Shown: positions 29,207 through 31,508 of the stretch, piece after piece | Layout: every line of letters starts with the position of its first letter | How positions within the stretch are numbered: position 1 is the stretch's first letter | Virus record (IMG/VR): IMGVR_UViG_3300049846_000155 | Span: 1 to 31,829 of that record | DNA from: a virus | Strand: one strand, 5' to 3' | DNA length: 31,829 bases | The notes under the pieces: model-generated | Database searches by the model: none | The model's input: only the letters and a program-made list of their open reading frames with translations | Told to the model about the DNA's origin: nothing | Made by a program: the position numbers and the translations under genes

Positions 29207-29452
29207 ATGGATTGGTTGACACAATCATTAGGTTTGGGGAAGGCGATCTTCCAATATCTGGACCGCTTAAATGGAACCAAGTATTACGATCGTCTTCTCC
29301 TTGCCGAAAAGGATTACTATGCGGAACTTAATAAGCCTCCAGAGTTTCTTGATGACAATCGGCTTTCTCACCTTAGGATTGAGCTTGAGTTATTGCTCAA
29401 CACTGCCTGTTCTCAGATTGGAAGCGCAGCAATTAAGGCTGGATCCCAGTAA
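29207..29452 (+). CDS. Small helical protein of lysis region
   Basis: An 81-aa protein beginning 4 nt after the previous stop without a clear ribosome binding site, so translation probably depends on reinitiation. It is mainly helical and charged: LGKAIFQYLDRLNGTKYYDR (about 10-29), LLLAEKDYYAELNK (about 30-43), then HLRIELELLLNTACSQIGSAA (about 55-75). There is no true membrane helix. Its last 134 nt are shared in another frame with the lipoprotein-like gene at 29319, an arrangement like nested lysis genes. The conservation-like pattern KDYYxELNKP suggests it is real, but the function is unknown. Confidence 0.6.
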   Translation: MDWLTQSLGLGKAIFQYLDRLNGTKYYDRLLLAEKDYYAELNKPPEFLDDNRLSHLRIELELLLNTACSQIGSAAIKAGSQ

Positions 29453-29618
29453 GCCTACGGTGTACTTTACTTACACTGAGTGTGTTAAAAAGTTCTTAGG
29501 TGCTTGCACCAAGAAGGAATTGAAGCGTAAAGAATATGATTTGGCTGACCCTGCAACTCGCAGTATGTTTATTTCTATGGGTTTTGTATTCCAAGTGAGA
29601 GAGAAACCTGGGCAATAG
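29319..29618 (+). CDS. Lipoprotein-like protein overlapping upstream gene
   Basis: A 99-aa protein starting at ATG 29319 with a good AAAGGA sequence (29308-29313), inside the 3' part of the 29207 gene but in another frame (+1 relative to it). It begins with R2 followed by a hydrophobic stretch (LISLQSFLMTIGFLTLGLSL) ending LSYC with Cys at 26, a near-lipobox in which the residue before Cys is Tyr rather than Gly/Ala/Ser. The mature part has a Cys pair (YTECVKKFLGACTK, about 53-66), then KRKEYDLADPATRSMFISMGFVFQVRE (about 70-96). Overlap plus lipid-type signal resembles o-spanins, though the partner lacks a membrane helix. A lipoprotein role in envelope disruption is likely, but not proven. 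Confidence 0.6.
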   Translation: MRNLISLQSFLMTIGFLTLGLSLSYCSTLPVLRLEAQQLRLDPSKPTVYFTYTECVKKFLGACTKKELKRKEYDLADPATRSMFISMGFVFQVREKPGQ

Positions 29619-29622
29619 TTAT

Positions 29623-30153
29623 ATGATACTAGACACAATTAAAGGTAATGCGGCAATCAAGCAGAGTGTTCTCATCGGTGTAGCTTCTGCTTTCGTAGGA
29701 GTTAAAGAGAACGGTTACAACGACGGCGAGTTCGTTCGCATGTTCCAAGACTTCATTGGCGATGCCAAGAAAGAATCATGGTGCATGGCTTTCGTTCAGT
29801 ACTGCGTTAACCTTACTGACAAGATCATGTACCGAGTAGATCACGACATGCCTCAGTCTATTATCCACAAGTCTGAGCACTGTTTAACGGTATGGAATAA
29901 TACATCACAGACCCTTCGGTTGAACGCTCCTGTGCCTGGCTGTATCGTTATCTGGAACCATATTGGCACATCCAATGGTCACACAGGTATTGTGGAATCT
30001 GTCGATGGTACAACCATGCAGGTTTTGGAAGGGAATACTGGACCTGGCGCAGGCGTAGAAGCTAACGGTGATGGGGTATACAGGAAAACAAGATACCTTG
30101 ATACAAGCAGCTCTAAGATGCAAATAAAGGGATATATAAGACCTTGGGTTTAA
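29623..30153 (+). CDS. CHAP-domain endolysin
   Basis: A 176-aa protein. The pattern ESWCMAFVQYCV (51-62, catalytic C54), PGCIVIWNH (105-113), NGHTGIVESVDG (118-129, catalytic H120) and LEGNTG (135-140, third residue E136 or N138) is that of CHAP amidase/endopeptidases that cut peptidoglycan peptide cross-links or the amide bond. The N-terminal VGVKENGYNDGEFVRMFQDFIG is usual for the phage TIGR02594-type version of the fold. There is no signal peptide or separate cell-wall-binding domain, so release would need a holin. The gene ends convergent with the minus-strand gene after it, overlapping by 4 nt. The nearest TAG is 29616-29618; no ribosome binding site is obvious. Confidence 0.88.
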   Translation: MILDTIKGNAAIKQSVLIGVASAFVGVKENGYNDGEFVRMFQDFIGDAKKESWCMAFVQYCVNLTDKIMYRVDHDMPQSIIHKSEHCLTVWNNTSQTLRLNAPVPGCIVIWNHIGTSNGHTGIVESVDGTTMQVLEGNTGPGAGVEANGDGVYRKTRYLDTSSSKMQIKGYIRPWV

Positions 30154-30356
30154 TGAACTGTTTGGCCGTGAATTGGAGCCATTTCAGCTTCTTCGATTCC
30201 TACTTCTCCAAAAATTAAGAACGCTGCGATACTGCACTTAAGTTGGTTTCTGTTGTACTGACCGGAGTCCATTAGCTCTATAGCTATAGCTTTAATATCA
30301 GCCCAGTCTTGTTCAGAAAAGTCAAACTCATATTTACACAATTCACGTTTAGACAT
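30150..30356 (-). CDS. 68-aa conserved-type helical protein
   Basis: A small minus-strand gene. I start it at the ATG complementary to 30354-30356, because AAGGAG lies about 10 nt upstream on that strand; a longer in-frame start at 30389 has no ribosome binding site and would read into the upstream gene. The product (MSKRELCKYEFDFSEQDWAD ...) looks helical, with IKAIAIELMDSGQYNRNQLK (about 22-41) and a hydrophobic stretch AAFLIFGEVG. The DSGQYNRNQLKC segment has the look of a small DNA-binding or regulator protein, but this is not a recognised family. Stop overlaps the endolysin stop; its start overlaps the end of the zinc-ribbon gene. Confidence 0.55.
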   Translation of the reverse strand: MSKRELCKYEFDFSEQDWADIKAIAIELMDSGQYNRNQLKCSIAAFLIFGEVGIEEAEMAPIHGQTVH

Positions 30357-30504
30357 ACCTGTAGCACTCCTTGCGTCGGCAGTTCTCACATAAACGCTGG
30401 TACTTAGTGTTAGCTAGGAACGTAACCTTGCAGCTTTCGCCAAGGCACTTCCTAGCAAACTTCGGTGCGTTTTTTCTTCCCCTTCTGTGGGGTGTTTTCT
30501 TCAT
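30349..30504 (-). CDS. 51-aa zinc-ribbon-like protein
   Basis: An ORF on the minus strand from ATG (complement of 30502-30504) to TAA (complement of 30349-30351). Its product starts MKKTPHRRGRKN, basic, and contains Cys at 20, 25, 39, 42 and 47: KCLGESCK, then LCENCRRKEC. A C-x4-C ... C-x2-C spacing with basic flanks is typical of small zinc ribbons that bind nucleic acid or act as adaptor proteins. The stop overlaps the start of the 68-aa gene (8 nt), so they would be cotranscribed. No ribosome binding site precedes the ATG, and only 2 nt separate it from the inverted repeat, so the message may be leaderless. Confidence 0.6.
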   Translation of the reverse strand: MKKTPHRRGRKNAPKFARKCLGESCKVTFLANTKYQRLCENCRRKECYRYV

Positions 30505-30506
30505 AT

Positions 30507-30543
30507 TTATATTGTCTCACGGTACTTTGATTTTACAATATAA
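30507..30543. promoter_or_regulatory. Perfect 9-bp inverted repeat: divergent promoter/operator candidate
   Basis: The arms TTATATTGT (30507-30515) and ACAATATAA (30535-30543) are exact reverse complements, separated by 19 nt. They fill nearly all of the 42-bp gap between the divergent genes starting at 30504 (minus) and 30547 (plus). Rightward, TTGTCT (30512-30517) and TACAAT (30534-30539) are 16 nt apart. Leftward, TTGTAA and GACAAT (complements of 30533-30538 and 30511-30516) are also 16 nt apart. Both predict transcription starts at or next to the start codons. Binding of a dimeric regulator to the repeat is an alternative or additional role. Confidence 0.5.
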
Positions 30544-30546
30544 GTA

Positions 30547-31230
30547 TTGGGTAACTATCTAGGAATTTCAGATCTCCAGATCCCCTACGAGCACATTAAA
30601 GCTCTTGAGTTCTGCGCGTACTTAAAAAGACACTTCAAAATTCCAGACGACAACATTTACAATGTTGGTGATGAGCTAGATAATTTCCATGGCGGATCGT
30701 GGCCTAAGGGCGCAGAATATCCTCATACACCAAGACAAGAGAGCCTAATCAGCAAGGAAAAACTCAAGGACTGGTACGCTGAGTTTCCAAAAATGAAACT
30801 TGCTATGTCTAACCACGGATCAAGGTGGATGCGTAAAGCGTTCCATGCTGAGATACCAAGCGAGATGCTTCGTAAATACGAAGACTTCATTGGCGCTCCT
30901 GATGGGTGGATATGGAAGCAGCAGTGGAAGGTAGACTGCAAGCATCCGTTCATTGTTGAACACGGAGACAGGTACGGAGGACAGCACCCACATATAGCTG
31001 CGGCTATGCATAACGGTATGTCTACAATAATTGGACACCATCATTCCAAGGCAGCGATAAGCTACATCAAGACCGCTGGCCTGGACATATGGGCGTGTGT
31101 TGCTGGATCACTTATCGACTTTGAACAGTACGCATTTGAGTACGGTCGTAATGCTAAACTACAGCCACAGATTGGCGCTACAGTGATTTTGAACGAAGGC
31201 CGTCACGTTATATGGATACCGATGGAATGA
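30547..31230 (+). CDS. Metallophosphoesterase (calcineurin-like)
   Basis: A 227-aa protein beginning at TTG 30547; an in-frame TAA at 30541-30543 excludes a longer form, and the first beta strand starts at residue 5. Motifs in order: SDLQ (8-11, D9; the usual H of D-x-H is Q11), GDELD (41-45), SNH (88-90, N89 and H90), a late H139, and IIGHHHS (161-167). These match a two-metal phosphoesterase centre that cleaves phosphoesters, as in phage relatives with SDLQIP-type starts. Substrate unknown: a nucleotide, DNA end or protein phosphate are possible. No ribosome binding site is visible, consistent with a leaderless message from the adjacent promoter candidate. The next gene starts within its stop (ATGA). 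Confidence 0.8.
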   Translation: MGNYLGISDLQIPYEHIKALEFCAYLKRHFKIPDDNIYNVGDELDNFHGGSWPKGAEYPHTPRQESLISKEKLKDWYAEFPKMKLAMSNHGSRWMRKAFHAEIPSEMLRKYEDFIGAPDGWIWKQQWKVDCKHPFIVEHGDRYGGQHPHIAAAMHNGMSTIIGHHHSKAAISYIKTAGLDIWACVAGSLIDFEQYAFEYGRNAKLQPQIGATVILNEGRHVIWIPME

Positions 31231-31508
31231 AGTTACCAAGAGAAGAGGACTATCCGTCTGAGTTATCTCTGTGGGGTGAAACCTATAAGATAACTTTCGT
31301 TAAGGGCATGGCTGATTACGGAAGCTGCGACAGTGGTAATATGGAAATCAGAATAAGAAGTGGAATGAGGCCAAGCAGTATTTTAAAAACATTTATTCAC
31401 GAAGCAATCCACATGGTCGAGTTCATTCATGGGTTTGAACTACCACACAGCCAGGTTTACTTGCTTGAAAAAGCTCTATACAGGATAATTAAGCAGTCTT
31501 GCTCATAA
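31227..31508 (+). CDS. Small zincin-like metallopeptidase-type protein
   Basis: A 93-aa protein. I use ATG 31227, in an ATGA overlap with the phosphoesterase stop; ATG 31212 is also in frame but lies within that gene. The chain runs through beta strands (LWGETYKITFV, then MEIRIRSG) into the helix TFIHEAIHMVEFIHG, where HEAIH (58-62 of this form) is the HExxH zinc motif. A third ligand might be a Glu/His further along, such as in LPHSQVYLLEKAL. This resembles short phage proteins of the SprT/ImmA-like zincin type. It could be a protease or a zinc-binding inactive relative. The coupling to the phosphoesterase implies joint expression. Confidence 0.7.
   Translation: MKLPREEDYPSELSLWGETYKITFVKGMADYGSCDSGNMEIRIRSGMRPSSILKTFIHEAIHMVEFIHGFELPHSQVYLLEKALYRIIKQSCS

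Follow-up and report, generated by a model that had tools for sequence, protein, structure and literature searches.

The promoters of bioA and bioBFCD in Escherichia coli overlap face to face within a long imperfect palindrome, the operator of BirA, which measures 34 bp from TTGT to ACAA. The cI gene of phage lambda starts with AUG and is transcribed from the promoter pRM. Its mRNA is leaderless (PMC9031893). In bidirectional promoters with a shared -10 element, short symmetric DNA directs RNA polymerase both ways, and binding in one orientation excludes binding in the other (Warman, Grainger; PMC12825309, PMC10268837); the two transcription starts are 7–25 bp apart, usually 18 bp (PMC10268837). 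The core promoters for CR and M in the restriction-modification systems EcoRV and CfrBI, located in or around one regulatory stretch, also overlap, so that polymerase cannot hold both; in EcoRV they are divergent. They are under the control of a C protein, and the EcoRV C transcript has a leader (PMC5333194); a mirror symmetry of their promoter elements is not known. Of the documented kinds, shared -10 promoters and overlapping divergent promoters of the EcoRV type come nearest to the viral locus described here.

The locus is a 42-bp intergenic gap (positions 30505–30546; 24% GC) in the 31.8-kb viral fragment IMGVR_UViG_3300049846_000155 (positions 1–31,829; the window). It separates the ATG (at 30504) of a leftward gene encoding a Cys-rich, zinc-ribbon-like protein from the TTG (at 30547) of a rightward gene encoding a metallophosphoesterase (MPE). 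The interpretation that we favor, with a probability of about 0.58, is that the gap contains overlapping, mutually exclusive face-to-face promoters of the sigma70 type, whose messages would be leaderless or have very short leaders. Whereas promoters of the shared -10 type have a single common -10 element, here each of two elements would serve as -10 in one direction and as -35 in the other, and a distance of 42 bp between the starts predicted at 30504 and 30546 is outside the range of 7–25 bp around a shared -10. The span from TTGT to ACAA is 27 bp, in contrast to the 34 bp of the BirA operator, and an involvement of BirA is not implied. As in the case of lambda cI, a phage message would begin at a start codon, but with two divergent genes instead of one and, for the MPE gene, with TTG instead of AUG. 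The design of the gap is unusually tidy but not unprecedented. A description of this geometry was not found in a search of titles and abstracts that covered the subscription literature thinly, which is weak evidence of novelty. If the favored interpretation is true, the gap would be a minimal arrangement of a pair of mutually exclusive promoters and their start codons around 42 bp, and a clear test case for elements that are used reciprocally as -10 and -35 and for the UUG-initiated translation of leaderless messages.

Genomic setting of the divergent gene pair

The major capsid protein encoded in the window matches the GP7 family and shares 60.2% and 59.3% identity with those of Enterobacter phage BUCT554 and phage phiV10, respectively, which identifies the window as a podovirus of that broad group; its host is likely a member of Pseudomonadota. 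The stretch of the window that was tested had no DNA-level match among 50,697 named phage records. The zinc-ribbon-like protein (51 aa; 30349–30504, minus strand) has no match in Pfam or PDB or among named phages. The end of its gene is overlapped by that of a 68-aa protein (30150–30356, minus strand) without a Pfam match, and similar proteins occur in the same gene order at two related loci (L002 and L076). The MPE (227 aa; 30547–31230, plus strand) matches phrog_221 (5.8e-35) and has relatives in 635 records of named phages, every one of them less than 60% identical. Solved structures matching the profiles of the zinc-ribbon protein or the MPE were not found.

The MPE gene is followed by that of a 93-aa metallopeptidase-like protein with a HEAIH motif (31227–31508, plus strand), which is also present in L002 and has a weak match, below the cut-off, to DUF6782, a family of putative metallopeptidases. 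Directly before the gene of a CHAP endolysin, the window contains two overlapping open reading frames (ORFs) on the same strand but in different frames (29207–29452 and 29271–29618), a placement that we take to be reminiscent of nested spanin genes.

The inverted repeat and its putative promoters

The initial annotation had pointed out a perfect 9-bp inverted repeat with a 19-nt center between the divergent genes, and this repeat is indeed present, with its left arm (TTATATTGT) at positions 30507–30515 and its right arm (ACAATATAA) at positions 30535–30543. Outward extension takes the repeat into both start codons, with pairing at 12 of 13 bases. Among 20,000 shuffled versions of the gap each, perfect repeats of at least 9 bp arose 26 times with dinucleotide shuffling and 62 times with base shuffling; because the whole window contains two such repeats (with loops of 3–40 nt), the repeat in the gap is unusual by its location, not by its length. 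A search for further copies, which had been proposed as a check, revealed no second copy in the window. An operator that recurs in the phage was rejected, since the window lacks a second full repeat and most further occurrences of a single arm, there and in 14 kb of L002, contain one mismatch. The exact repeat was likewise rejected as a mobile or shared module: among the 57 viral loci that contain TTATATTGT-N15-23-ACAATATAA, starts of ORFs of at least 40 aa were located near both arms in none and near one arm in nine, and most of these loci were therefore taken as chance occurrences.

Both hexamer pairs required for each arm to act as the -10 element of one promoter and the -35 element of the other, with spacers of 16 nt in both directions, are found in the gap. 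In the rightward direction, RNA polymerase would take the left arm as -35 (TTGTCT; 30512–30517, plus strand) and the right arm as -10 (TACAAT; 30534–30539, plus strand), with a predicted start at 30546. In the leftward direction, the right arm would serve as -35 (TTGTAA; 30533–30538, minus strand) and the left arm (GACAAT; 30511–30516, minus strand), together with the TG upstream of it, as an extended -10 (TGA; 30517–30519, minus strand; TGAGACAAT), a feature that had been overlooked; the predicted start at 30504 is the A of the zinc-ribbon ATG. The predicted starts, which had been suggested to fall at the first codons, are 0 nt from the start codon for the leftward promoter and 1 nt before the TTG for the rightward promoter. 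Because the promoters overlap, the two polymerase complexes could not occupy the gap at the same time, and the starts would be mutually exclusive per binding event.

On both strands, the spacers are within the 15–19 bp expected of an overlapping divergent sigma70 promoter pair. An equal or better pair of promoters with starts between -2 and +1 of both start codons appeared in 46 of 20,000 shuffles (75 if the strands are considered exchangeable). By bare consensus, the gap is not special: 2.8 kb of sequence contain five promoter-like sites, as compared to 5.5 expected from shuffles, and the hexamers fit the sigma70 consensus, which may not be that of the host, only moderately well (9 and 8 of 12 positions). 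A fit of at least 8 near the start codon was found at 5 of the 34 starts in the window, three of which belong to other genes. Promoter activity, the two start sites, their mutual exclusion, and leaderless translation are what we infer from these elements. A repressor-free toggle, in which the orientation of polymerase alone would pick one of two leaderless messages, one of them with a leaderless UUG, from a 42-bp palindromic promoter, is a more far-reaching version and seems unlikely. In bidirectional promoters, exclusion can be without consequence while basal activity is low and shows itself once one direction is strongly activated (PMC12825309), so that a switch-like role is not implied for the gap.

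It had also been claimed that neither gene has a ribosome binding site, which was borne out by the weak duplexes with the 16S rRNA tail (-2.6 kcal/mol for the MPE gene and -4.0 kcal/mol for the zinc-ribbon gene). Good Shine-Dalgarno sites are present on most late genes of the window, and values of -4.5 kcal/mol or better are reached at 27 of its 34 starts. The gap pair ranks among the seven weakest; since five of the 32 other starts are also weak, the missing Shine-Dalgarno sites are not unique to the pair. They are, however, missing or poor at both divergent genes in all four genomes that possess the pair (window, L002, L060, and L076). In the MPE frame, a TAA (30541–30543) is followed directly by GTA and TTG, and the catalytic SDLQIP motif is reached without a further usual start codon, which leaves the TTG at 30547 as the only usual start of the gene. 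The zinc-ribbon ATG is supported by the homolog in L002, which opens with identical residues. The messages of both genes are probably leaderless or nearly so. The preference of leaderless mRNAs for AUG agrees with the ATG of the zinc-ribbon gene but not with the TTG of the MPE gene, for which leaderless translation appears to be a poor fit. On leaderless messages in E. coli, UUG is far less efficient than AUG (PMC9031893), and the MPE gene may therefore be poorly translated or use a leader of a few nucleotides.

Conservation in relatives and competing explanations

The only near relative in the collections searched is L002 (contig IMGVR_UViG_3300049846_001243), whose MPE and zinc-ribbon protein are 86% and 61% identical to those of the window. 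Only 22 of 65 four-fold degenerate sites (34%) in the MPE gene are identical, which is close to saturation, whereas 31 of 42 positions in the gap are identical, without an indel. The conservation of the gap, which is the strongest evidence for the promoters, is not random: both rightward hexamers are fully identical (12/12; binomial p 2e-6 against the four-fold sites), in contrast to 7 of 16 positions in the spacer between them (Fisher p 0.0017) and 4 of 13 in the inner center (30520–30532), which is not conserved. The leftward hexamers, which are offset by one base, are also completely identical, as is the union of both sets (14/14); the rightward identities were counted by script, the leftward identities and the union were read from the alignment. 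This amounts to strong purifying selection on a phage intergenic gap while synonymous sites are almost saturated. Identity extends through positions 30512–30519 (8/8), which include the CTCA at 30516–30519 (TGAG of the leftward extended -10), and decreases slightly at the outer edges (6/7 and 6/7). The distances from the promoter elements to both start codons are unchanged. The prediction that the repeat would be preserved in relatives holds for the hexamers and their spacing but not for the symmetry: in L002, positions 30509 and 30542 have each changed without compensation at the partner base, which leaves 7 of 9 pairs; the inner six pairs are kept. Selection appears to act on the promoter elements and not on the mirror itself, and the pattern in this alignment fits two promoters whose discriminators are fixed better than it fits a hairpin or a symmetric site for a protein.

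A profile search for the MPE recovered 26 loci. The promoter survey comprised 20 MPE starts, without the five weakest loci (L096–L100), L077 and L078 (upstream DNA equal to that of L076), duplicate contigs (L002=L075, L060=L083, L061=L085, L062=L087, L063=L094, L064=L096, L065=L097), and the loci of a separate search (see L073 below); start codons were chosen in-frame codons, several of which are uncertain in the distant genes. The motif ATTGT-N17-23-ACAAT is present upstream of 3 of the 20 starts, namely in the window, in L002 (as L075), and in L080, whose MPE is 55% identical to that of the window. In L080, ATTGT-N20-ACAAT is located 35 nt before the ATG, with a promoter spacer of 17 nt and a predicted start at the ATG. 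Such a motif occurred anywhere in the 150 bp upstream in 21 of 20,000 shuffles, a value uncorrected for the 17 other starts; the promoter score of 7/12 is ordinary (1106 of 5000 shuffles).

The initial annotation had also considered that a dimeric protein binds the repeat, a notion that found no positive support. As an explanation of the gap, a dimeric regulator that occupies TATTGT-N19-ACAATA and represses both genes, with promoters beneath, is improbable. Its two 6-bp half sites are conserved in L002, which encodes a Fis-like helix-turn-helix (HTH) protein nearby (HTH_8, 2.8e-5), and the base pair flanking the core is C-G in L080 but A-T in the window. However, the fixed spacing and symmetric half-site conservation expected of a dimeric regulator are not found: the half sites are 19 nt apart in two phages but 20 nt in L080, only seven of the nine pairs are kept in L002, the cores are separated by 25 bp (approximately 2.4 helical turns), and the conserved CTCA next to the left arm has no mirror image on the right. 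Moreover, there is no second site in the window, and a second pair of arms was not seen in 14 kb of L002.

The case of L080 bears on another explanation, which we consider about equally improbable, namely that only the MPE promoter is conserved and that expression of the zinc-ribbon gene is weak or driven by sequences elsewhere. Both the symmetry and the leftward promoter would then be by-products, because -35 elements of the TTGT type and -10 elements of the ACAAT type are by nature reverse complements. L080 retains the motif although a divergent gene was not seen there and a co-directional ORF of 204 aa ends just upstream of the MPE gene, and the loss of perfect symmetry in L002 points in the same direction. 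Against this explanation, L002 has kept both the CTCA at 30516–30519, not every base of which is required by the rightward promoter, and the spacing between the leftward promoter and the ATG. An RNA hairpin, a cruciform, or a functionless chance palindrome is very improbable. The window strand does fold better than its shuffles (z -3.0), which speaks for a hairpin, but L002 does not (z 0.17; two stem pairs broken without compensation), and the gap has neither a terminator-like site nor a match to any known RNA family in Rfam.

More distant MPE genes and their surroundings

Divergent pairs of zinc-ribbon and MPE genes are also present in L060 (MPE 53% identical to that of the window), with a gap of 187 bp, and in L076, with a gap of 61 bp. 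In L060, the MPE gene has a TATAAT that ends 8 nt upstream of its ATG, and there is no obvious -10 element beside the zinc-ribbon start; the MPE start of L076 has no comparable promoter. The distant MPE genes of L084, L086, L088, L089, L092, and L093 have strong Shine-Dalgarno sites.

In L061 (2932–3675) and its duplicate L085 (1932–2675), the MPE frame is open upstream, and there is no ATG, GTG, or TTG before a GTG at the catalytic motif; a GGGGGAGGG run is located upstream, and translation may begin at a less common codon. The Fis-type protein of L002 (4651–4950, minus strand; 100 aa) contains four cysteines and is encoded beyond the MPE operon, at a place whose counterpart the window does not reach. 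Contig IMGVR_UViG_3300035666_000068 (38.7 kb) carries similar but non-identical MPE copies at its opposite ends (L077 and L079; 58% and 56% identical to that of the window). Another MPE (L073; 45% identical) is encoded on a contig (JAIXYK010000064.1) that was binned as part of a Bacteroidetes metagenome-assembled genome, which may reflect a prophage or a binning error.
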